Part shown: positions 13,890-62,745 of the stretch, in pieces
How positions within the stretch are numbered: the first letter of the stretch is position 1
Layout of the letters: each line of letters opens with the position of its first letter
Origin: Bacteroidaceae bacterium
Lineage (GTDB): Bacteria > Bacteroidota > Bacteroidia > Bacteroidales > Bacteroidaceae
Direction: 5' to 3'
DNA length: 64,000 nucleotides
Assembly: GCA_017534535.1 (NCBI GenBank)
Contig: JAFXVZ010000003.1
Span: 62,001 to 126,000 of the forward strand
Notes under the pieces: model-generated
The model's input: only the letters and a program-made list of their open reading frames with translations
The model's database searches: none
What the model was told of the DNA's origin: nothing
Made by a program: the position numbers and the translations under genes

Positions 13890-14720
13890 ATGGAAGTACA
13901 AGCGAACTACATCAGACGAATAGAGATCCACGGATTGTGGAACCGCTATGACATTGCTTGGGACTTGCGTCCCGATGTGAACATACTGAGTGGTATCAAT
14001 GGTGTGGGTAAGACCACCATCTTGAACCGCTCGGTCACTTATTTGGAGCAGACTTCAGGACGTGTGAAAGATGGATTCCTGAATGATGTACAGGTGTGGT
14101 TCGACAATGAGGAGGCCACTTATATCCCCTTTGACGTGATACGTAGCTATGACCGTCCGTTGGTGCAGGGTGACTTCACAGCCCGCATGGCTGACCCATC
14201 TGTACGCACTGAGATAGATTGGCAGATCTATCTGTTGCAACGTCGCTACCTGGATTATCAGGTAAATATCGGCAACAAGATGATTGCCATGCTCAGTGGA
14301 AGTGACGAGCAACGTGCCCAGGCTGGTGAGTTGGCCAAGCCCAAGGCTCGTTTCCAGGATATGTTGGACAGCTTGTTCAGCTATACAGGCAAGAAAATAG
14401 ACAGACAGTCTAATGAATTGTCGTTTATACAATATGGTGAGAACATCACAGCCTATCAGCTCTCAGCTGGTGAGAAGCACATGTTGGTGATACTCCTCAC
14501 TGCCCTGCTGCGTTGTGGCGAACACAGTGTGCTGTTCATGGATGAGCCAGAAGCTTCACTCCATATCGAATGGCAGGAGCAACTCATCGAGATGATTCGT
14601 GATTTGAACCCCAATATCCAACTCATCCTGACTACCCATTCTCCTGCTGTCATCATGCACGGATGGATGGATGCTGTGACTGAAGTAAGTGAGATAGCGA
14701 AAGAAATTAATGAAGATTAA
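13890..14720 (+). CDS. Compact AAA/ABC-type ATPase (OLD/AriA-like)
   Basis: The 276-aa protein has the full ABC-type set: Walker A GINGVGKTT (residues 35-43), signature LSAGEKH near 191, Walker B VLFMDEPEASLH near 214-225 and the switch His in LTTHSP near 248. This resembles the ATPase of OLD-family and PARIS (AriA) systems but is much shorter, since it lacks a long inserted arm. It overlaps the downstream DUF4435 gene by one base (TAATG), so the two are translationally coupled. An ATPase coupled to a DUF4435 protein is the arrangement of PARIS anti-phage defence; whether this small version is defensive or a housekeeping pair beside uvrA is not decided by the sequence. Confidence 0.85.
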   Translation: MEVQANYIRRIEIHGLWNRYDIAWDLRPDVNILSGINGVGKTTILNRSVTYLEQTSGRVKDGFLNDVQVWFDNEEATYIPFDVIRSYDRPLVQGDFTARMADPSVRTEIDWQIYLLQRRYLDYQVNIGNKMIAMLSGSDEQRAQAGELAKPKARFQDMLDSLFSYTGKKIDRQSNELSFIQYGENITAYQLSAGEKHMLVILLTALLRCGEHSVLFMDEPEASLHIEWQEQLIEMIRDLNPNIQLILTTHSPAVIMHGWMDAVTEVSEIAKEINED

Positions 14721-15715
14721 TGCCCAAGACGCTGAAACATAGTTTAAGCTCCGACTACCTGGATGCTGCCCGCTTGCTTTCCCCCAAGAAAAAACGCAAG
14801 AGGGTGGTGGTGTATGTGGAGAGTTATGACGACATTGCCTTCTGGCGCGATATCCTCAACGATTTTGAGAATAGTGACCGCTACTTTGAGGTGATGCTGC
14901 CGGCCTCTTCACGTACCTTGGTGCATGGCAAGAAAAGCGTACTGCTGCAGTCGTTGCAGAGCGATCAGTTGGGTGATAATCTCATTGCCTGCGTAGATAG
15001 CGACTATGACTATCTCATGCAGGGGGCCTCTGATTCCTCTCGTAAGGTCAATGAGAGTCCGTATGTGCTGCAGACCTACTGCTATGCTATCGAGAACTTC
15101 TGGTGCTATGCAGGGGCTTTGCATGAGGTGTGTGTACAGGCTACGTTGAACGACCATCAGATATTTGACTTCCAACGCTTTCTGAAAGATTATTCAGAAG
15201 CCATCTATCCGCTTTTCCTGTGGAATTTGTTCTTCTATCGTGCCAATGATATGAAAACCTTCCCCATGAAGCGTTTCAATGAGAATACTGTAGTCAACAT
15301 TGTCAACATCAAGAACCCTCAGCAGGCATTGGATAAGGTGCGTCATGTGGTGGAGGCGGAACTGGAATACTGGAAGACCCGTTTCCCCGAATATGTTGAA
15401 CAGGTGGAAAGCCAAAAAGAGGCACTGCAGGACTTGGGCCTGACGCCTGAGAATACCTATTTATTTATTCAGGGGCATCATCTGCTTGACAATGTGGTGA
15501 TGAAACTCCTCATCCCTGTGTGCACCCAACTGCGTAGGGAGCAAGAGGACCGTATTCGTAGGAAATCAGTCCATATGCAGCAGATGGCCAACGAACTTAC
15601 AGGCTATGAGCGCAGTGCCCTGCCAGTGGAGGTGGTACTGCGTAAGAATGTGGAATACAAGCAGCTTTTCCTATTTCGCTGGATTCTCGAAGACCTGTAC
15701 AATATCTTTCCTTAA
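14720..15715 (+). CDS. DUF4435 (TOPRIM-like) protein, AriB-like partner
   Basis: The 331-aa protein begins with a conserved core typical of DUF4435: VVVYVESYDDIAFW with Glu34, and ACVDSDYDYL with Asp residues near 93 and 95. These match the Glu and DxD metal-binding positions of a TOPRIM fold. In PARIS, AriB is such a DUF4435 effector nuclease released by the ATPase AriA. The remainder is mostly alpha-helical with aromatic residues and no known motif. Its TAA at 15713-15715 overlaps the TAA of the convergent uvrA in the palindrome TTAA. Confidence 0.83.
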   Translation: MPKTLKHSLSSDYLDAARLLSPKKKRKRVVVYVESYDDIAFWRDILNDFENSDRYFEVMLPASSRTLVHGKKSVLLQSLQSDQLGDNLIACVDSDYDYLMQGASDSSRKVNESPYVLQTYCYAIENFWCYAGALHEVCVQATLNDHQIFDFQRFLKDYSEAIYPLFLWNLFFYRANDMKTFPMKRFNENTVVNIVNIKNPQQALDKVRHVVEAELEYWKTRFPEYVEQVESQKEALQDLGLTPENTYLFIQGHHLLDNVVMKLLIPVCTQLRREQEDRIRRKSVHMQQMANELTGYERSALPVEVVLRKNVEYKQLFLFRWILEDLYNIFP

Positions 15716-29519: not shown

Positions 29520-30707
29520 TTACCTGTTTCCCTTTGCTCTGTTATGCGTCTTGCAAAGCATTTGGCAATTCTCAATATCTGTGTTGCCGCCCTTGCTCCA
29601 AGCCGTTACATGGTCGGCATCCATGTCCTTCAATTCCCAAATCTTAGTGTGATTAGCATCGTGGCCAATAGCGCAGAGCGGGCAGTTGCTTTCACCCTTT
29701 TCTTTGGCTGCTGCCGTTTGCTGGGCATACACAGCCTTCTTGGTTGGCTCGTCAAATACACGGACATTCAGTAGTGTGGTATTCTGGCAGCCATCGAGAA
29801 TGTATTCATAGATGCCCTTCTTCTCCTTAACATAGAAACTCTCGTATAGTTCACGAACTATCTCTGCTACTTCTACTGGGTTGTAAGGTGTGTTGTGGAA
29901 ACGCTCGTATAGTTCGCCCCATTTCAAACCACACATCTCTTTTTCTGGTACGAAGTCAAATACCGAGGTTATCCAGTCGATTACAGAGGTGAAATAGGCT
30001 TTCAACTCATTAATGTTGTTGTCGTATCGGTGCGCAGCCATGTAGTCCTCAATACACTTGTTGTCGCCTTTATCCTTTGATATCCATGCAAGAGCAGTAT
30101 GCAAGTAGTCCTGACGCTTGGCAGTACCAGGTATGAATTTACTCCACTTATTGATATTGATATTGTTTGAGTTGGAGAATTCTTCTTTTGCTTTGCTTAC
30201 AAACGGGCCTGAATAAACGGCGTTGAGTGTTTCTTGATTATTCAGTGGAATGCCAACAATATTGATGGTTCGGAACCAGTCTTTGATTTCTTTTTCTGTG
30301 CCTTCACATATGTAGATAAGCAACTTCGTGTTCAGGAACTTTTCTTGCTCATCTTTGTTCAGTGCGGTAAAGTACCACGGTCTGCCGTCAGTATCTATCC
30401 ATGCAAACTTTTCCGTAATGAAGCGTCCCAGCGAAGTAATACGCTGTTGACCGTCCAGCACCTCATATTTGTTTTCGCCTACCTTTGAGAAGTAGATAAG
30501 CCCTAGGGGATATCCGTTGAGAACAGATTGAATTACATCCACCTCTTTCTTTCCACCATTTTCAGCATAGAGGTAATGGCGTTGATATTCAGGCTGAATA
30601 GTCAGCTTTCCCGACAGACCATAGAGGCCCTTGCCTTCGTATTCGTTATACTGGAACCCTTTGCAAATGTCACCAATGGTCCAGTCAGTAATGAGTGTAG
30701 GTTTCAT
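29520..30707 (-). CDS. DUF262-HNH nuclease, partner of the adenine methyltransferase
   Basis: The 395-aa protein joins two parts. The N-terminal DUF262 (ParB/GmrS-like) domain shows QPEYQRHY near residue 38 and the nucleotide-binding motif [13 protein letters not shown] near residue 82. The last 55 residues are an HNH nuclease: a CPLC pair, then [20 protein letters not shown] and [10 protein letters not shown], with all metal and catalytic positions present. DUF262 proteins with nuclease tails include GmrSD, BrxU and SspE, which cut foreign DNA. It starts five bases after the methyltransferase stop, so the two form an operon and probably a restriction-modification pair. Confidence 0.86.
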
Positions 30708-30712
30708 ATCTG

Positions 30713-31795
30713 TTATTGTTTTTTGCGGATTAAGATTCTTGCATATGGCTTTTGCGGGATTCCGTTCTCGTCAATATAATAGAGCTGCCCATCCCTAAGA
30801 CTTTTGTTCAACTTCTTTAGTTCGCGTGGATATGGTTTCAAACCAAGTTCTTTGCCAGAATCACCCTCGGCGCAACCAACAATGGCAAATTGTTCTGGAC
30901 AATATTTGTCAAGAAAAGTAGTAGGTACTCCCATAATTCCATCGAAATCAGAAGGAATTGCATCTGTATAAGGTACATCTATAGCATCAAAATTCTCGTA
31001 ATGATAATAATAACCTCTTTTTTGTATGTCTCGATGTTTACCAAAGCGTATATTATCTTTCATTGACATCAACTTTAATGGCTCGTGTCGTCTTCCATGG
31101 TCAATATTAGTAAACCAACATGTATTTCCCATTTTTTGTAATCCACCTTCTGGTTTCGCATATTGCTTTGCCCCATTAGATACGCCCAACCATACTTTGT
31201 TAACTTGGATAACTGGGAAAACTTCTTTGTAATGTATAGCGTTCATGTGTCCGAGAATCAATAATCCTTTATTTGCTTCAAAAATCCATGCCAGGAATTC
31301 CCTAAACAATGAGAACGGTGGATTCGTTACAATAATATCTGCTTCATCACGAAGCTTGCAAACTTCTTTGCTTCGGAAGTCACCATCACCCTCTAAGTAG
31401 TGCCACTCCAAGTCATCAATGTCAATGCGTCCATTTTGATTGGTATCATGAGTCAGCTCAAAAATCTTACCCTTAATACGAGTTTTGTCAACATCGAACA
31501 ACGGGCTTTCTGTTTCAAAAAGCGTAGGCTGGTAGTCTTTGTACTTCTTGCTTTCTACAGCATAACTTGTGCTGATGAGCCTTTTCAAGCCCAGACGCTC
31601 AAAGTTCTGAGCAAAGAACTTTGTGAAGTTGCTCCACTCAGGGTCATCGCAGGGTAGGAGTACCACCTTGTCACGGAATGTGTCAGGATTATATTCCAGA
31701 TAGGCGTTCACTTCCTTCTGTATGTCGGCATACTGGGTGTAGAACTCATCGTTCTTTGCAGCTTTGGCTGCCCCAAGATTACTGTTGTTAGCCAT
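30713..31795 (-). CDS. Adenine-specific DNA methyltransferase, EcoRI family
   Basis: The start at 31795 ([21 protein letters not shown]) fits the family better than the ATGs at 31831 or 31819. The 360-aa protein has the EcoRI-methylase arrangement: NDEFYT near the N-terminus, [14 protein letters not shown], and the catalytic motif TNPPF near residue 155. It should methylate adenine N6 in a specific site and protect host DNA from the DUF262-HNH nuclease encoded next to it. The target sequence cannot be read from the protein. The gene has a leader of about 310 nt. Confidence 0.88.
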
Positions 31796-32104
31796 AATAC
31801 AATTGATAGTATTAGTCATTACAGGCATCAACTATCAATCACGCCAAAACGCAAGAGGTGTGATGCACCTTTTGCGTTCAGCTTCGAGGTAGCGTAGGAA
31901 GGGAACCTCGGCAGTCTTACAAGTATGCACCACACCAATAAGTGTGTGCATTCCTACTAACAAGACTGCGCAAGATGCCCCATACCGAGCACCTTATCAC
32001 ATATTATTTCTGTGCGTTTTTATTCCCAATAAGTTTCCTACGCTTTTGGCTGAACGCGAAATAATAGCGAATGCTTTATATATAGTTCGGATTTCTCCCC
32101 GAAC
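31796..32104 (-). promoter_or_regulatory. Long structured 5' leader of the restriction-modification operon
   Basis: Transcription from the promoter at 32141-32111 would give about 310 nt before the ATG. Two 9-base segments near its 5' end (32057-32049, 32043-32035) are exact complements of 31882-31874 and 31900-31892. The second arm at 31900-31892 can instead pair with 31957-31951 (7 bp). The arm at 31882-31874 overlaps a 13-bp hairpin, 31878-31848 (loop TGATG), followed by TTTT. An 8-bp stem 31918-31911/31969-31962 encloses a further GTGTGTGCA stem. These pairings exclude one another, as in attenuators. I see no peptide gene here. Confidence 0.55.
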
Positions 32105-55385: not shown

Positions 55386-57638
55386 ATGAAAGCTATTAGA
55401 TTTTGGGTAGCGACTTTGATAGCAACCCTGATGGTTTTAGGGTTAACGGCATGTAGTAGTGATGAAAAGGCGTTTGTAGATTATGAGCCTTTGGCTACTG
55501 TTAATGGTGGTAACTTGGTGAAAGGCATCAGTGTTTCGCTTAGCGATTTGGTGTCGGCAAATGCAGATACTCGTACCACCTACGATACTTCTGGTTCTGG
55601 TGTAAAAGTGGCTTGGGCAAAAAATGACACCATCGGCATCTTCCCCAGCAAAGGAGGACAGGTGGAGTTCCCAATCGAGGAAGGCACAGGTAGCAAGCAG
55701 GCTTTGTTCGATGGTGGTGATTGGGCATTGAAAGCAGGTCGAGCCTATGCTGCTTACTATCCCTTTAATCGTTGGAATACTTTTCGTGACAACAAAACCA
55801 TTCAGCTTGATTATACAGGTCAGACGCAGACGGGCAATGATAACTCCGACCATTTAGTCAAATATGACTATCAGGCAACAGGTTCCATCACCACCAATGC
55901 CAATGGTTACCTCAATTTCCAGTTTGAACACATGGGAGCCTTGCTGAAGATTGAGCTTACAGTTCCTAAGGCTGGCACTTACACTTCGCTAACCTTGACT
56001 TCATCCAACCAAGTGTTTGTTACCAAAGCCGAGTTGGATATCTCAGGTAATGAGCCTGTAGTGAAGCCTGTAACCCAAACAAACTCCATCACTTTAAGTC
56101 TAAAAAATGTATTGTTAAGTTCAGACAATGATGTTTTAACAGCTTATCTGATGTTAGCACCCACTGACTTATCATCGGGTACATTGGAGATTGCCCTAAA
56201 TGGCTCTTCCAATTATGTTACGGAGGTGAATGGCACGAAGTTGGAAGCTGGGAAGCTATATAAGATTGCAAAGGAACTTGCTACAAGTGGTAACAATATC
56301 GTTTTTGCAGATGAGAATGTGAAAGCTATCTGTGTGGCTAATTGGGATACGAATGGTGATGGGGAATTGAGTTATGATGAAGCTGCAGCGGTAAATGATA
56401 TTGGCACAATTTTCTATCGTTCTTTAATAAAAAGTTTTAATGAGTTAGAGAATTTTATAGGACTAAACTCAATTGGAGATGAGGCTTTCTATAGTTGTAC
56501 CAGCTTAACGAGCATCACCCTACCAGAGGGGCTAAATACTATAGGAGAAAAAGCTTTCTATCGTTGCAATAGTTTACTCAGCATCACCCTTCCAGAGGGG
56601 TTAAATTATATACAAGAAAGTGCTTTTGAGAATTGTACTAGTTTAACTAGTATTACTTTACCAGAGGAACTTAATGGTTTTGGATGGTATACTTTCCAAA
56701 ATTGTTCTAGCTTAAAAAGTATTATCATTCCAAAAGGGGTGGGTAGAATTAGCTTACGCGCATTTCAGAATTGCCAAAGTTTAAAAGATGTCACTCTGCA
56801 AGAGGGGCTGATTGTAATAGACAATTATGCTTTCCAAGATTGCTCTAGCTTAGTCAGTATTACCCTTCCAGAAGGATTGGATTATATTGGTAATAAAGTT
56901 TTTTATGGTTGCTCCAGCTTAACTAATATCACCCTGCCTGAAACTCTGATGTCTATTGGTTCTGAAGCTTTTTCTGGTAACTCAAAATTAATCAGCATCG
57001 AGATCCCAAGTAAAGTATCTTCTATTTCTGGATCCACTTTCAAGGATTGCACCAGCTTGAAGAGTGTCAAATTGTCTGCGAATACATATCATATTGCTAA
57101 TGATGCCTTTTTTGGTTGCACCAGCCTAACCAGCATAGATATACCTGATTGCGTATCGACCATTGAAGATAATGCTTTTGCTGGTTGCACCAGTTTGACA
57201 AGTGTAAAACTACCAACCAGCATCACTACATTGGGACATAGTGCATTCAAAGGTTGCACACAGCTGGGAAGTGTGGAGATGTCTGAAAGTATGACTTCTA
57301 CAGGCTTCTATGCGTTTGCCAATTGCTCCAACCTGAAGGATGTCACCTTGCCAGAAAGCATGCAAACCATCAGTGGTGGTGCATTCAACAACTGTACCAG
57401 TCTCAAGAGCATTGTTTTGCCACAGGCAGTTAGCTCTATTGGCACAAGTGCTTTTAAGAGTAGCAAGAATCTAGAGGTGATAACTGTGAAAAACGCCACA
57501 CCTCCAACGGTAGAAAGCAATGCATTCAGCGATACAGGTATTAAAACCATCTATATCCCAGCTGTATCAGTAGATGCTTACAAGGCAGCTGATGGGTGGA
57601 GTGCCTATGCTGATTTTATCCAAGCAATTCCAGAATAA
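55386..57638 (+). CDS. BspA-like leucine-rich-repeat surface lipoprotein 1
   Basis: The 750-aa protein has a lipoprotein signal (MVLGLTACSS, Cys near residue 23). Residues about 40-295 look like a fimbrillin-type beta region (TRTTYDTSG, VAWAKNDTIGIFPS, RAYAAYYPFN). At about 312-330 an EF-hand/dockerin-like loop DTNGDGELSYDEA follows. The rest is about 15 repeats of 23 residues of the LRR_5 type (IGDEAFYSCTSLTSITLPEGL). The C-terminus IPAVSVDAYKAADGW is shared with its paralogue at 58612. BspA proteins bind host proteins and other bacteria, so adhesion is the likely role. Confidence 0.87.
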   Translation: MKAIRFWVATLIATLMVLGLTACSSDEKAFVDYEPLATVNGGNLVKGISVSLSDLVSANADTRTTYDTSGSGVKVAWAKNDTIGIFPSKGGQVEFPIEEGTGSKQALFDGGDWALKAGRAYAAYYPFNRWNTFRDNKTIQLDYTGQTQTGNDNSDHLVKYDYQATGSITTNANGYLNFQFEHMGALLKIELTVPKAGTYTSLTLTSSNQVFVTKAELDISGNEPVVKPVTQTNSITLSLKNVLLSSDNDVLTAYLMLAPTDLSSGTLEIALNGSSNYVTEVNGTKLEAGKLYKIAKELATSGNNIVFADENVKAICVANWDTNGDGELSYDEAAAVNDIGTIFYRSLIKSFNELENFIGLNSIGDEAFYSCTSLTSITLPEGLNTIGEKAFYRCNSLLSITLPEGLNYIQESAFENCTSLTSITLPEELNGFGWYTFQNCSSLKSIIIPKGVGRISLRAFQNCQSLKDVTLQEGLIVIDNYAFQDCSSLVSITLPEGLDYIGNKVFYGCSSLTNITLPETLMSIGSEAFSGNSKLISIEIPSKVSSISGSTFKDCTSLKSVKLSANTYHIANDAFFGCTSLTSIDIPDCVSTIEDNAFAGCTSLTSVKLPTSITTLGHSAFKGCTQLGSVEMSESMTSTGFYAFANCSNLKDVTLPESMQTISGGAFNNCTSLKSIVLPQAVSSIGTSAFKSSKNLEVITVKNATPPTVESNAFSDTGIKTIYIPAVSVDAYKAADGWSAYADFIQAIPE

Positions 57639-57660
57639 TAAAATATTGTCATATAGCAAA

Positions 57661-57688
57661 GGAGGGAGGGGGCAACCCCTCCCTTTTT
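57661..57688 (+). terminator. Terminator of LRR lipoprotein 1
   Basis: GGGAGGGG-gcaa-CCCCTCCC followed by five T. Confidence 0.9.
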
Positions 57689-57861
57689 ACTTCTCCCAAT
57701 TTTCCCTGTCAATGGTTCCTATTAATTCATTCACGTATGAAAGTAAGGTTATAAGTCTTCGTGAATGACTTTCCATTCTCTTACACTTATCGCTCTTTTT
57801 CATAAATCAGTCTTTTGTCTTGGTTAGCACTATTTGCGGTAAAAGGGAGCAATGTGCCATC
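57689..57861 (-). pseudogene. Remnant of an MntA-HepT toxin-antitoxin pair
   Basis: Bases 57689-57791 align by eye with 61810-61915, the C-terminal part of the intact HepT-like gene. Bases 57797-57861 align with 62165-62232, the HepT start and MntA C-terminus. About 245 bases of the HepT body are missing between the two parts. The tail cttggttagcactattt is the same in both copies. The remnant lies directly behind LRR lipoprotein 1, while the intact operon lies behind LRR lipoprotein 2. Confidence 0.8.
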
Positions 57862-57978
57862 AATTGCCCAATAGTTTACAATGGATTGCCTGGATGTCAC
57901 CTACCTTTCGTCCGAAGGCCTTCTATCTCTCGCTGCAGTCTCTCACGTGAGGGTATAGGAATAAATCGATGCTCACCA

Positions 57979-58102
57979 ATACACAATAGCTCATCCTACC
58001 TATTACTAATAGTTCTACCTACACATTAGTAATAGCTCTGCCTACACATTAGTAATCTCTCAGCCCACACATTACTAATCTCTCGGCTGAAAGATTAGTA
58101 AT
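57979..58102. repeat. 23-bp-period array, copy 3
   Basis: ATTACTAAT or ATTAGTAAT starts at 58002, 58025, 58048, 58071 and 58094, with a degenerate unit at 57979. The rest of 57862-58307 holds no gene that I can see. Confidence 0.85.
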
Positions 58103-58307
58103 GTTTAGCTTTGTGTTATGCGCATCGCGCATATATTTATATAATCTTTTCTGTTCTCGCCCGCCCGCACGTAATAATAGGTGTATTGGGAGTCGCGTTG
58201 GACACGTCTTGGACACAAGTTTGCATTTTTTAACTTTTAAAACTCCGTCAAGTGATGGCAAGCATTCCTTTGATTGGAAGCAAAAAAGTCATAGGTTTAT
58301 GCCTCCT

Positions 58308-58342
58308 AACCCATAGGTTTGGTATTGCTTAACCTATGGGTT
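58308..58342. repeat. 12-bp perfect inverted repeat before array 4
   Basis: AACCCATAGGTT (58308-58319) and AACCTATGGGTT (58331-58342) pair around an 11-base loop. The sequence aligns with 54325-54370, next to array 1. Confidence 0.75.
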
Positions 58343-58357
58343 ACGACCTGCTAACCT

Positions 58358-58481
58358 ATTACTAATAACACATCCTACCTATTACTAATTGCTCCGCCTA
58401 CCTATTAGTAATCGCTCAGCCAACACATTACTAATCTCTCGTGCTACACATTAGTATGTTGCAAGGCATCAACATAGTAAT
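58358..58481. repeat. 23-bp-period array, copy 4
   Basis: ATTASTAAT-like 9-mers start at 58358, 58381, 58404, 58427, 58450 and 58473. Confidence 0.85.
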
Positions 58482-58527
58482 GTCTCGAGCACCATTATAC
58501 TATGTTGTTGAAAAAAACGCTGCATTA

Positions 58528-58559
58528 TTGCATTTACTCAGAATCTTTTTATATCTTTG
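58528..58559 (+). promoter_or_regulatory. Promoter of LRR lipoprotein 2
   Basis: TTG at 58528-58530 and TATCTTTG at 58552-58559 are 21 bases apart; the ATG is at 58612. Confidence 0.7.
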
Positions 58560-58611
58560 CAGATGAAGTAGAATATATTTTATCAATAGATAATGATTTA
58601 ATTCTAATACC

Positions 58612-60903
58612 ATGGGAAAGTTGTTTATGAAGTCATTGTTCTACTTATGTGTTTCCTGTATGGCAATCCTGATGCCATTCGGCTTGACGTCATGTGCCGC
58701 TGATGATGAGTTAGCTGAGCACAAGGAGTATGATGGTGGAGGCATCAAGTCGTTTACTTCCTTTACCGCTACTCTTGACGAGGTGGCGGGAACACGTGCC
58801 TACTTGGATGCTGAGGCAACCAATGGCATCAGGCGAGTACATTGGAATTTAAGTGATGTAATTTATGTATATAGCGACACTGATCCAGAACTGAAGAAGT
58901 ATGAGATGACAAGTCTTAGCGAAGACGATCAGGCTGTTTTCACTGGCGAGGAGGTTACAGGCAACAAGTTCTATGCGGTGTATGCACGGAATAGAGAAAT
59001 CACGATTGATGATGATAATTACAATATTTTGCATTTCAGTAGGGCTGGCATGACGTCAACCTATGGTTTTCATGGCCCATTAGTTGCGATCACTACTGGT
59101 AATACTCTATCTTTTAAGCAGGTTATAGGCATCATTCATGTTACTGTCGGCAATATTAATACTATAGACAGAGTTAGTTTTAGGGGTAACAATAATGAAA
59201 GAATCGGCGGTAAAGGCTATGTGGATATGTCAGAAAGCCATCCCATACTCCGTCTGGATGAAGATGCAAGTACTATTAGTTACAGTCAGATATTTAACGA
59301 TAGCTTTGATGATAAATATACCGATATTTACATTTGTATCCCGACTACAGTCTTTGAGGATGGTTTCAGTGTGTGTATTACAGGCAAAGATTCTAATGAC
59401 AAAGAGTTTACCATTGATAAGACTTTTAATTCCCGATTAGAGGTCAAGGTTGGCACCATCTCACGTTTCTCATTGGTAGATGTAAGTGCTGAGTTAGAGG
59501 CACAGGGTAGCGATGAAATCATTGTCTTTGCCGACCCGGAAGTCAAGCAGATATGTGTAGAGAATTGGGATACTAATGGGGATGGTGAGTTGAGTTATAA
59601 AGAGGCTGCGGCAGTGACGGAGATTGGCCAGATATTTTTGAGGAATGCCGATATTAAGTCTTTCGATGAATTTCAGTACTTCACAGGCGTGACATCAATT
59701 GGCTATGGTGCTTTTAGGGGTTGCAGCAGCCTGACCAGCATGATAATACCTGAAGGTGTGACATCAATTGGTAATTCTGCTTTTTTGGATTGCAGTAGTT
59801 TGAACAGCATTGTGATACCTGAGGGTGTGGCATCAATTGGCAGCGAGGTTTTTTCAGATTGCAGCAGCCTGACCAGCATTGTGATACCTGAGAGTGTGAC
59901 TTCAATTGATAATAGCGCTTTTTTGTATTGCAGCAGCCTGACCAGCATTGTTGTTGATAAGAATAACAACTATTATGATTCACGAAATGACTGCAATGCA
60001 ATTATAGAGACAAAAAGTAATACATTGGTCATTGGATTTGCTTCAACTGTTATTCCTTCCAGTGTGACATCAATTGGGGATGAGGCTTTTCAGCTTTGCA
60101 GCAGCCTGACAAGTATTGAAATACCTGAGGGTGTGACATCCATTGGCAGTTATGCTTTTGATAATTGCAACAACCTGACAAGCATTGTGATACATAAGAG
60201 AGTAACATCCATTGGCAATTCAGCTTTTAGGAATTGTTGCAGTTTGACCAGCATTGTGATACCTGAAGGTGTGGCATTCATTGATGATAAAGTTTTTTGG
60301 GGTTGCAACAACCTGACCAACATTGTGATACCTGAAAGTGTGACATCAATAGGATATGCTGCTTTTTCAGGTTGCAGCGGACTGACCAGCATTGTGATAC
60401 CTGAGGGTGTGACATCAATTGGCAGTTATGCTTTTGATGATTGCTACAACCTGACCAGCATTGTGATACCTGAGGGTGTGACATCAATAGAGATGGGTGT
60501 TTTCATGGGGTGCAGCAGCTTGGCCAGTATTGTGATACCTGAGGGTGTGACGTCAATTGGTAGTGGCGCTTTTTCACGTTGCAGCAGCTTGGCCAGTATT
60601 GTGATACCTGAGGGTGTGACATCAATTGACAATTCTGTTTTTTCTGGTTGCAGCAGTCTGATAAGCATTGTGATACCTGGGGGTGTGATATCAATTGGTA
60701 GTGGCGCTTTTTATGGTTTCAGCAGCCTGACCAGAATTACTTGCTTGGCTGTCAATCCTCCAACTTATGATAATGTTTTCTTAGAGAATTTTGGAAATTC
60801 TTATTCCGGCACTATCTATGTCCCAGCCGCCTCAGTAGAAGCCTACAAGGCAGCTGATGGATGGAAAGACTATGCATCTCAAATCCAGGCAATACAAGAA
60901 TAA
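58612..60903 (+). CDS. BspA-like leucine-rich-repeat surface lipoprotein 2
   Basis: The 763-aa protein has a lipoprotein signal (MPFGLTSCAAD; start at 58612 or the ATG at 58627). Residues about 40-295 are a fimbrillin-like beta region ending in TISRFSLVDVSAELEAQ. The EF-hand/dockerin-like loop DTNGDGELSYKEA near residue 323 matches its paralogue. About 14 LRR_5 repeats of 23 residues follow, of the form GVTSIGnnAFnnCSSLTSIVIPE. One is broken by an insertion (DKNNNYYDSRNDCN) that BspA proteins often carry. The repeats are so alike at DNA level (69-bp units) that unequal exchange is likely. The C-terminus VEAYKAADGWKDY is shared with LRR lipoprotein 1. Confidence 0.87.
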   Translation: MGKLFMKSLFYLCVSCMAILMPFGLTSCAADDELAEHKEYDGGGIKSFTSFTATLDEVAGTRAYLDAEATNGIRRVHWNLSDVIYVYSDTDPELKKYEMTSLSEDDQAVFTGEEVTGNKFYAVYARNREITIDDDNYNILHFSRAGMTSTYGFHGPLVAITTGNTLSFKQVIGIIHVTVGNINTIDRVSFRGNNNERIGGKGYVDMSESHPILRLDEDASTISYSQIFNDSFDDKYTDIYICIPTTVFEDGFSVCITGKDSNDKEFTIDKTFNSRLEVKVGTISRFSLVDVSAELEAQGSDEIIVFADPEVKQICVENWDTNGDGELSYKEAAAVTEIGQIFLRNADIKSFDEFQYFTGVTSIGYGAFRGCSSLTSMIIPEGVTSIGNSAFLDCSSLNSIVIPEGVASIGSEVFSDCSSLTSIVIPESVTSIDNSAFLYCSSLTSIVVDKNNNYYDSRNDCNAIIETKSNTLVIGFASTVIPSSVTSIGDEAFQLCSSLTSIEIPEGVTSIGSYAFDNCNNLTSIVIHKRVTSIGNSAFRNCCSLTSIVIPEGVAFIDDKVFWGCNNLTNIVIPESVTSIGYAAFSGCSGLTSIVIPEGVTSIGSYAFDDCYNLTSIVIPEGVTSIEMGVFMGCSSLASIVIPEGVTSIGSGAFSRCSSLASIVIPEGVTSIDNSVFSGCSSLISIVIPGGVISIGSGAFYGFSSLTRITCLAVNPPTYDNVFLENFGNSYSGTIYVPAASVEAYKAADGWKDYASQIQAIQE

Positions 60904-60918
60904 ACCCTAATAAAACAC

Positions 60919-60944
60919 AAAAGGGAGGGGAACCCCTCCCTTTT
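60919..60944. terminator. Terminator of LRR lipoprotein 2
   Basis: AAAAGGGAGGGG-aa-CCCCTCCCTTTT is a perfect palindrome related to the terminator at 57661 and works in both directions. Confidence 0.88.
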
Positions 60945-60991: not shown

Positions 60992-61801
60992 TTATGTTGT
61001 TTTAAGTAAAGATATTAGAAGTTTCTTAAAGATGTTTAGTACAAAGGTATTAATGTCATTCATTATGGTTTTTACTTCCTTTTCTGTAAACACATGAAAC
61101 TCTCCAGTCTTTTCACGAGCATTTCTATGGACAATTCTATGTCTCATCATGAAATAGTTTTTCATTTTACTTACATCACATAATTTGTGCATATTACCAA
61201 TTCCATAAACATGGTAGAAATAGCATTTTATTTTACCCCAGTCTGCAAATGAAGTTTTCATAATATCTTTTATGATTTGCTGCTCAAAATGGCCTTTGTC
61301 AAGTTCTAATAAACGACAGCTTGCTTTTTGGGGAAGTTCATTGATGTACCATTTACAAAACTTGTCAAAGCAATCTTCACTTGATGTTATTTTTGAAATG
61401 AGAGTTTCGCAAATAAAAGCATCTAATATCGTTATCATATGAAGATAAATTAATTTGAACAAAGAGTTTTGAACCGTCTTATTATTCATCAATTTGACTT
61501 CCTCTAAATTATTTTTTATTTCTCTATATTGTTGTTTATAAGTTTGGAATGCTTTAATGAAATGAGAATTAAGATAATATGAACCTAGTGAAAGAGAAGT
61601 AACTCCTTTGGTTGCATGATAAGTGTTGAAAATAGAAACAGGGTGGTTCTCATCAATGACAAACAATCCTCTATCTAAGTCATTTAACTCCCATACTTCA
61701 GCTCCTTCAGGGATAGAACATAAAGCTTCCGTTCCCGTTTGAAATTTAAAATCTGGATGAGTAATTAATAAAGTGCCATCTATATAGATATCTTTAGCCA
61801 T
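60992..61801 (-). CDS. Third protein of the MntA-HepT operon, with a HEPN-like motif
   Basis: The start at 61801 (MAKDIYIDGTLL) lies inside the last codons of the HepT-like gene: the ATG is part of GATGGCTAA. The 269-aa protein has a beta-rich N-terminal part (YIDGTLLITHPDFKF, PEGAEVWELNDLDRGLF), then long helices (LFKLIYLHMITILDAFICETLIS). Near residues 220-225 the segment RHRIVHRN gives RX4H, the pattern of HEPN ribonucleases. No close family is recognised. Overlap with hepT shows that it is part of the operon. The gene is A+T-rich, like the other two. A function as a second toxin or an accessory RNase is inference. Confidence 0.75.
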   Translation of the reverse strand: MAKDIYIDGTLLITHPDFKFQTGTEALCSIPEGAEVWELNDLDRGLFVIDENHPVSIFNTYHATKGVTSLSLGSYYLNSHFIKAFQTYKQQYREIKNNLEEVKLMNNKTVQNSLFKLIYLHMITILDAFICETLISKITSSEDCFDKFCKWYINELPQKASCRLLELDKGHFEQQIIKDIMKTSFADWGKIKCYFYHVYGIGNMHKLCDVSKMKNYFMMRHRIVHRNAREKTGEFHVFTEKEVKTIMNDINTFVLNIFKKLLISLLKTT

Positions 61802-62171
61802 CTGTTTCCTTCTCCCAACTTTTCCAATCAACTGTTTTTATTAATTGACTGACATAATCAAGTAAAGGTTGTAAATCTTCATGAATGACTTTCCAAACTT
61901 CTCTCACGCTTATTTGATAATAGTCATGTACGAGCACATGGCGCATTTTGATGATGTAAAGCCAAGGGACTTGATTATATTCTTGGCGAAAATCGTCTGT
62001 TAATCTACTTGCTGCTTCACCAATGATTTCTATGTTCTTTACAATCGCAAAGAACATCATTTTATCTGTGGATAACTCTTCAATGGTTTTATCCTGGGCA
62101 AACTCAAATATGTAGTTGATGGCAGTTTGAATATGCTCCAATCTGCTGTGGTCTCTAATTTTCTCTTTCAT
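61794..62171 (-). CDS. hepT: HepT-like HEPN ribonuclease toxin (DUF86)
   Basis: The 125-aa helical protein has the HepT signature RHVLVHDY, that is RX4HXY, at residues 77-84. Upstream FFAIVKNIEIIGEAASRL is a typical DUF86 helix. HepT is a ribonuclease toxin kept in check by MntA, which adds AMP to the Tyr of the motif. Both catalytic Arg and His and the target Tyr are present. The gene overlaps mntA by 17 bases and the third gene by 8. Confidence 0.9.
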   Translation of the reverse strand: MKEKIRDHSRLEHIQTAINYIFEFAQDKTIEELSTDKMMFFAIVKNIEIIGEAASRLTDDFRQEYNQVPWLYIIKMRHVLVHDYYQISVREVWKVIHEDLQPLLDYVSQLIKTVDWKSWEKETDG

Positions 62172-62448
62172 AAATCAGCTTTTTGTCTTGGTTAGCACTA
62201 TTTACGGCAAAAGGGAGCAATGTACCATCTTCAACGATGTCAACTGGACGATTGAGAAGATGCTCTAAATCAACAATCATACCTGCATGTTTCAAGAGGC
62301 TGACCCCATCTTTGTCATATACCACGAGGATATCCACATCACTTTGTGGAGTTTCCTCGCCTCTGGCAAAGGAACCAAAGACCCATGCTTTCACGACTGG
62401 TTGAGTCTTGAAATAGTCGGCTATGGCTTTAGTAATAGATGCATTCAT
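62155..62448 (-). CDS. mntA: MntA-like nucleotidyltransferase antitoxin
   Basis: The 97-aa protein is a minimal nucleotidyltransferase. GSFARGE (residues 25-31) with Asp37 and Asp39 in SDVDILVV gives GSX10DXD, and RPVDIVED supplies the third Asp near residue 70. MntA enzymes AMPylate HepT and so neutralise it. It is the first gene of the operon, with its own promoter. Confidence 0.9.
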   Translation of the reverse strand: MNASITKAIADYFKTQPVVKAWVFGSFARGEETPQSDVDILVVYDKDGVSLLKHAGMIVDLEHLLNRPVDIVEDGTLLPFAVNSANQDKKLIYEREN

Positions 62449-62472
62449 TGTTTAAATCGTTGATTCTTTGTG

Positions 62473-62503
62473 CAAATATAGACATTAAAATGTAAAGTGC
62501 AAA
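62473..62503 (-). promoter_or_regulatory. Promoter of the mntA-hepT operon
   Basis: On the minus strand TTTG (62503-62500), then 19 bases, then TATATTTG (62480-62473), the best promoter match in the window. From 62504 to 62714 I see no gene or clear repeat. Confidence 0.8.
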
Positions 62504-62714
62504 ATGCAGTGGGCAACTTTATGAAAAATTTGCAGTAGCATCTTCTATTATTCTCTTCGCAATACTGTCCTATAGGGCAATTGTCGGTATCCTTGCATTG
62601 TTAATTATCATTAATTGATGATGCCCAAGCTTGCATTGCAGAAGAAATATTACCTGTTTTGCATTTCATAAAATACGAAACGTAAAACATGAAATTATGC
62701 CAACGATTAAAATA

Positions 62715-62745
62715 TCAGCACCCACAGAATCTGTGGGTGCTGATG
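62715..62745 (-). terminator. Terminator after glpF
   Basis: The 31 bases are a near-perfect palindrome with two 15-bp arms (ATCAGCACCCACAGA and its complement). A short T-run follows on the minus strand. Confidence 0.8.

Follow-up and report, generated by a model that had tools for sequence, protein, structure and literature searches.

In the type VII toxin-antitoxin system MntA-HepT, as presented in PMC7641770, an antitoxin gene with a GSX10DXD motif is followed by a toxin gene with an RX4HXY motif, and MntA AMPylates the tyrosine of RX4HXY in HepT. The Geobacillus MNT/HEPN genes that appear in PMC6929052 overlap by 17 bases, and the three-component set in that source consists of MNT-MNT-HEPN. 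Ribonucleases of the HEPN type are characterized in PMC3710099 by an Rx4-6H signature with a polar residue after the arginine and an acidic residue upstream, and the same source proposes a second-line role for HEPN RNases in restriction-modification (R-M) systems.

Here we describe a locus from a Bacteroidaceae bacterium that has the same antitoxin-then-toxin order, both motifs, and a 17-base overlap, and that continues into a third gene whose product is very probably a HEPN protein, an arrangement that differs from MNT-MNT-HEPN. Throughout, the window refers to the whole stretch of DNA that was analysed, which is 64 kb long.

Gene organization of the locus

All three genes lie on the minus strand. 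The first, mntA (62155..62448), encodes a minimal nucleotidyltransferase antitoxin of 97 aa that matched Pfam NTP_transf_2 (PF01909; 5e-17, over the cut-off) and has GSX10DXD at residues 25-39 (62332-62376). The second, hepT (61794..62171), encodes a HEPN RNase toxin of 125 aa that matched Pfam HepT-like (PF01934; 3.2e-22, over the cut-off) and has RX4HXY at residues 77-84 (61920-61943). Gene coordinates and motif positions confirm what an earlier note had read from this DNA, namely an intact MntA and an intact HepT whose genes overlap by 17 bases. The PF01909 gene is directly upstream of the PF01934 gene, the order expected of MntA-HepT. Because scores against NCBIfam NF047752 (MntA, 49.3 bits) and NF047751 (HepT, 30.7 bits) were under the 60-bit cut-offs and the Pfam cut-offs were passed, the pair was assigned to MntA-HepT on Pfam and motif grounds and was not classed as NCBI equivalogs. 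In addition, MntA matched the PADLOC defence candidate PDC-S09 (7.6e-20), and HepT was the sole PF01934 match found in the source genome. Matches of HepT to Cyclin-C by phmmer, with E about 0.001, were set aside. As part of the overall explanation that we prefer below, mntA-hepT is probably a standard type VII pair in which MntA would AMPylate HepT at the RX4HXY tyrosine, as is established for the family.

The third gene (60992..61801) encodes a HEPN-like protein of 269 aa, counted from an ATG that overlaps the end of hepT by 8 bases, and its frame is open over the full length. Codons 1-80 (61562..61801) specify a beta-rich N-terminal domain and codons 81-269 (60995..61561) a predicted all-helical HEPN-like domain, which includes the predicted RNase active-site motif RHRIVH (R220-H225; 61127..61144). 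The same note had placed a 269-aa gene with this motif near its C-terminus at the end of hepT, and the coordinates bear that out. Other Bacteroidales have relatives that share its start and are similar in length, which shows that the third gene is real.

An exact match to TTTG-N19-TAnnTTTG, which we take to be the Bacteroidetes promoter consensus, lies 24 bases before mntA (62473..62503, minus strand). There were 6 exact matches in the window, compared with 0.73 expected from shuffles, and none was located between mntA, hepT, and the third gene. Terminator-like hairpins lie on both sides: one between glpF and mntA (62714..62744, minus strand) separates the operon from upstream genes, and the only one within the operon region is 3' of the third gene, before a convergent leucine-rich-repeat (LRR) gene (60919..60944, minus strand). 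Given the promoter match before mntA, the lack of any between the genes, and the flanking hairpins, the three genes are probably a single unit transcribed from one promoter. From sequence anatomy, hepT and the third gene also appear to be translationally coupled.

Genomic context and origin

The base composition of the block is uneven. GC content is 41.5% in mntA, 35.4% in hepT, and 30.0% in the third gene, where the lowest-GC 800-base window of the 64 kb is found (30.1% versus a median of 48%). Relatives of the third gene were likewise AT-richer than their own loci in all seven cases checked. In genome G065, the closest relative, where glpF is 99% identical, about 0.8 kb of other sequence lies between an LRR gene and glpF, and mntA, hepT, and the third gene are all absent. 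In three further relatives (G026, G028, and G008), the gene after glpF is one that we take to be lactonase-like, which in the window is found about 8.5 kb further on; the order in G006 differs again. The absence in G065 and the differing gene order after glpF suggest that the region is variable and that the mntA-hepT-third gene block is probably a fairly recent gain.

The window also contains two LRR genes at 55386-60903 (plus strand), the second of BspA type by Pfam and the first, which was unscanned, similar in appearance. Three relatives lack this LRR-gene region between glpF and the lactonase-like gene, and G065 carries an LRR gene of its own at that place. Elsewhere in the window, a GmrSD_N/HNH restriction-like gene is directly after an EcoRI-type adenine methyltransferase gene (29520-31831, minus strand; Pfam 1.7e-17 and 9.8e-116, respectively), and by sequence these two are likely an R-M pair. 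In addition, a DUF4435 gene directly adjoins an AAA_21/AAA_15 ATPase gene (13890-15715, plus strand), a possible defence pair of the OLD-like type.

Family and fold of the third protein

Direct searches with the third protein placed it in no HEPN family. No Pfam family was over its cut-off, and PF18735 (HEPN_RiboL-PSP) was absent even at E <= 10; HEPN models of Pfam, NCBIfam, and PADLOC were not listed, and PADLOC defence models gave no match. There was also no match to the HepT family (PF01934), and an asparagine stands where RX4HXY has its tyrosine. GED, PLATZ, Choline_transpo, and INI1 of Pfam were rejected, all being under their cut-offs. The identity of its relatives is more informative. 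In an alignment of 32 proteins, made up of the window's third protein (itself without a PF18735 match) and 31 relatives, PF18735 was matched at E <= 0.01 by 18, with a best value of 2.3e-10. The relative in G028, which is 37% identical to the third protein, matched it at 6.1e-5, under the family cut-off. The RTasHEPN model of PADLOC matched three of the 32 (best 0.00031). Furthermore, phrog_17908, a phage family of unknown function, matched residues 87-269 of the third protein (E 1.3e-5) and 24 of the 32 aligned proteins in all.

The AlphaFold model from 32 sequences (pLDDT 87.3, pTM 0.84) has six strands up to residue 74 and then helices to residue 268, specifically at 81-103, 108-138, four between 142 and 199, 210-226, and 240-268, with RX4H (220-225) at the end of helix 210-226. 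When a library of viral structures was searched with Foldseek, the top match (probability 1.00, E 0.0046) was a phage HEPN protein of the MAE-28990/MAE-18760-like kind, although no match in that library or in the PDB was at E <= 0.001. The PDB search returned the HEPN entries 2hsb, 8xdj, 7ae6, and 8yuf at only E 1.6 to 2.2; among the best 50 PDB rows, 8yuf_B ranked first by both probability (0.33) and target TM-score (0.55). Sequence searches of solved structures with the third protein, its 189-aa C-terminal part, or the 32-protein profile gave nothing meaningful, and comparing profiles with those of PF18735 members yielded weak results (20.5% and 2.9%). Plasmid records yielded ten weak matches of about 22% identity, some of them annotated HEPN. 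No relatives were found in phage records or in single-sequence scans of genome and viral contigs.

Among the proteins compared, the beta-rich N-terminal domain, which has no assigned family, was restricted to a small Bacteroidales subfamily. In the tree, the third protein joins six relatives with this domain (support 100/97) on a long branch of its own, and relative L088 is placed elsewhere. Family matches of the relatives, the all-helical C-terminal model around RX4H, and the viral-library match, even at E 0.0046, agree with the HEPN-like nature that had been suggested for the protein, and on sequence and model we consider it very probably a HEPN. A sensor role for the N-terminal domain is possible.

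The RX4H motif and the missing acceptor tyrosine

By itself, RX4H is weak evidence for HEPN. The motif arose in 5,088 of 20,000 shuffles of the third protein, and the stricter R[NDH]X3H in 848 of 20,000. What counts is conservation. Sequence or profile searches, as opposed to the motif scan, found 15 relatives; R[HN]X3H is near the C-terminus in 13 and Rx5H in one more, which puts a motif in the expected place in 14. The fifteenth, in G235, is a doubtful match (E 1.4e-4) with only RIQNHH at 188, outside the aligned part. Position 127 is acidic in all 32 aligned rows (E in 25, D in 7), which fits the second HEPN motif as given in PMC3710099, just as the histidine after the arginine fits the polar residue of that signature.

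The third protein keeps R220, H221, H225, R226, and N227, but deviates at A228 (G in 31 of 32 rows) and R222 (D in 25 of 32). These departures at conserved sites, along with the long branch, could be taken to mean that it is a decayed or noncatalytic HEPN, one that might, for instance, bind RNA and regulate the operon; MtlR is among the HEPN regulators proposed in PMC3710099 to be noncatalytic. Yet these five residues are retained and the frame is open over its full length, and we consider this reading very unlikely. The preferred interpretation is that the protein is a ribonuclease cutting RNA with R220 and H225.

The residue two positions after the motif histidine, which in HepT is the modified tyrosine, is asparagine in the third protein and in all 32 aligned rows, an invariance that is partly built in because the 31 relatives in the alignment were found with a pattern including that asparagine (RHxxxHRN). 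The 15 relatives found without the motif pattern provide an independent view, and none has a tyrosine at the AMPylation position. RX4HXY occurred anywhere in only one of the 32 rows, taken as residue 82 of the L055/G135 protein, off the motif site. AMPylation of the third protein through RX4HXY was rejected on these grounds, and the suggestion that it is a target of AMPylation thus finds no support from the known route.

Co-occurrence with MntA-HepT

A HepT match was present in 43 of 158 genomes of the genus, the source genome included. From the 54 HepT matches listed, 30 loci were fetched, and MntA was upstream in 27; the third gene was present in one of these 27, the window's own. One of the 27 (L043) extends only 147 bases after hepT, and a 28th locus (L045) was scored as lacking MntA, yet MntA passed in a different search (E 0.00049) and no third gene was there. 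At a further MntA-HepT locus (L024), a different same-strand gene of 149 aa (1877-2326), which we take to be DUF3990-like, starts 31 bases after hepT.

The converse search gave the same answer. Relatives of the third gene were found in 15 genomes (297, 399, and 393 genomes searched in overlapping sets, the source genome included), and hepT was found beside the relative in none of the 15. No PF01934 match was found in six of them, and in the other nine such matches were on other contigs or hundreds of kilobases or more away (G072, G110); in G135 and G588 the relative is at a contig end, where a link to hepT could be cut off. Pattern scans added 86 third-gene-like loci, of which at least eight (L052, L053, L055, L056, L059, L063, L073, and L088) are the same places as sequence-search matches; 85 of the 86 have a frame at the match. 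No HepT-like frame was found in the flanks of the 85, and the one MntA-like frame (L113) was about 2 kb away. For these neighbour scans, single-sequence phmmer was run at E <= 1e-3 over <= 6 kb (about 1.5 kb for the MntA-HepT survey), or less where a contig ended, so that a distant HepT or MntA could have escaped it. We found no title on a HEPN third gene after MntA-HepT in the literature, which was judged mostly by titles and with term spellings that may have missed some. A conserved three-gene variant of MntA-HepT is rejected by these counts.

Genes beside relatives of the third gene

In 22 of the 85 pattern loci, a frame of 150 aa or more lies on the same strand within 50 bases of the match. 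We scanned 20 neighbours with Pfam, picked for closeness and without a background rate for defence-gene nearness. Eight of the first ten matched Pfam: N6 DNA methylase, AbiGi, SIR2_2, AbiEii (L063 and L065), RhuM, Schlafen/AlbA_2, and an AAA/STAND-type ATPase. The distance to the relative is two genes for AbiGi and the ATPase, about 85 bases for RhuM, and about 200 for the Schlafen gene. Eight of the second ten also matched: YhcG nuclease, D12 and N6 methylases, NERD, AAA helicase, RelA/SpoT, PLD-type nuclease, and AAA_21. Relatives with the same N-terminus are next to or near an N6 DNA methylase (L056), RhuM (L059), or an 822-aa protein that matched nothing in Pfam (L054), or two genes from AbiGi (L012) or the AAA/STAND-type ATPase (L146). 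Relatives are directly after DNA methylase genes in L056 and L092 by Pfam, and L095 resembles L092 by its first letters.

Several of these arrangements deserve description. In L063 (4547-6537), L064, and L065 (1-2627), a zinc-ribbon HEPN gene is directly after an AbiEii gene, with a gap of 35 bases in L063 and 1 in L065; AbiEii was identified by Pfam in these two, and L064 looks like L063. The gene before AbiEii is presumably AbiEi, and the loci, from Bacteroides, Phocaeicola, and a Lachnospiraceae genome, are possibly a three-gene variant of AbiE. In L068 (5737-7623), the gene that starts 6 bases downstream of a HEPN relative has a RelA/SpoT domain. A SIR2-like gene is directly upstream of a zinc-ribbon HEPN gene in L060 and L066 (gaps of 7 and -23), with Pfam evidence for L066 only. 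Finally, the relative with the same N-terminus in L146 shares a 3,774-base contig with the AAA/STAND-type ATPase gene and with other genes that we take to be phage-like.

The family of the third gene looks like a defence-associated HEPN with exchangeable N-terminal parts, beta-rich here and zinc-ribbon elsewhere, and the pairing in the window looks like one local combination rather than a conserved three-part machine. A true three-part system, in which MntA or MntA-HepT restrains the third HEPN or is sensed by it and one operon controls two RNases in layers, would account for the predicted shared promoter and terminator, the two gene overlaps, the absence of the whole block together in the nearest relative, and the precedent of another HEPN subfamily directly downstream of the nucleotidyltransferase toxin AbiEii. 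However, it is unlikely in light of the single occurrence among 27 loci, the absence of hepT beside relatives, the replacement of the acceptor tyrosine, and a third-gene GC content unlike that of its neighbours. That GC contrast, together with the single occurrence and the many other contexts of the family, could instead indicate an unrelated gene inserted after hepT by chance, with no functional link and an incidental overlap. We regard this as distinctly unlikely, since the 8-base overlap is tight, a terminator-like hairpin is found only after the third gene, and relatives are often near defence genes, even if those partners were picked for closeness.

Discussion

Our analysis points to a standard MntA-HepT pair that gained a 3' gene for a separate, stand-alone HEPN endoribonuclease effector, horizontally acquired and riding on the toxin-antitoxin operon, an explanation that we hold to be probable on sequence evidence. 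The third protein would be an RNase of the abortive-infection type, triggered by infection as perceived through its N-terminal domain or a partner. Given that it has no acceptor tyrosine and that its relatives are without hepT nearby, it most likely acts outside the control of MntA. The third gene would then belong to a mobile HEPN family, rich in AT, whose members turn up repeatedly near unrelated defence genes. There is a limit to the stand-alone reading: the 8-base overlap and shared promoter, seen in one genome only, could mean functional dependence. Of the proposal that the third protein is a second effector, the possible RNase role stands, resting on a coupled gene with a HEPN-like C-terminal domain, and the special three-gene system does not.

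The locus matters on two counts. One predicted operon contains two HEPN-type genes from different families, and the analysis points to a HEPN subfamily in Bacteroidales whose beta-rich N-terminal domain is unclassified and whose members recur near defence genes of several kinds. A broader idea, to which we give a low probability, is that an unnamed plug-in family of HEPN RNases backs up varied front-line systems, including nucleotidyltransferase toxin-antitoxin pairs, DNA methylases, SIR2, and RelA/SpoT. Here it would act in two steps, with failure or consumption of MntA-HepT releasing a second, independent RNase. A layered arrangement in which AbiEii or MntA forms the front line is possible, although few loci bear on it. 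Should the second HEPN respond to the state of the neighbouring system, the locus would offer a test of HEPN RNases as a second line behind other defences.

Comparison with described systems places the third protein near several without assigning it to any. Compared with MntA-HepT, the window adds a third HEPN-like gene that is, to judge from the overlap, translationally coupled. Among the families treated in PMC3710099, RiboL-PSP-HEPN (PF18735) and MAE_28990/MAE_18760 have a C-terminal HEPN domain with Rx4H, as in the third protein; some MAE_18760 members resemble it further in having a mostly beta N-terminal domain, and MAE_28990 has nuclease or methylase neighbours, as do third-gene relatives. 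Unlike these families, the third protein is in no Pfam HEPN family, its N-terminal domain is without a family, and its neighbour is MntA-HepT. The likeness to phrog_17908 is limited to its C-terminal part. Finally, third-gene relatives directly after DNA methylase genes recall the PrrC-type two-line defence and the HEPN genes inside R-M operons that are described in PMC3710099, whereas the window has a toxin-antitoxin pair in that position.
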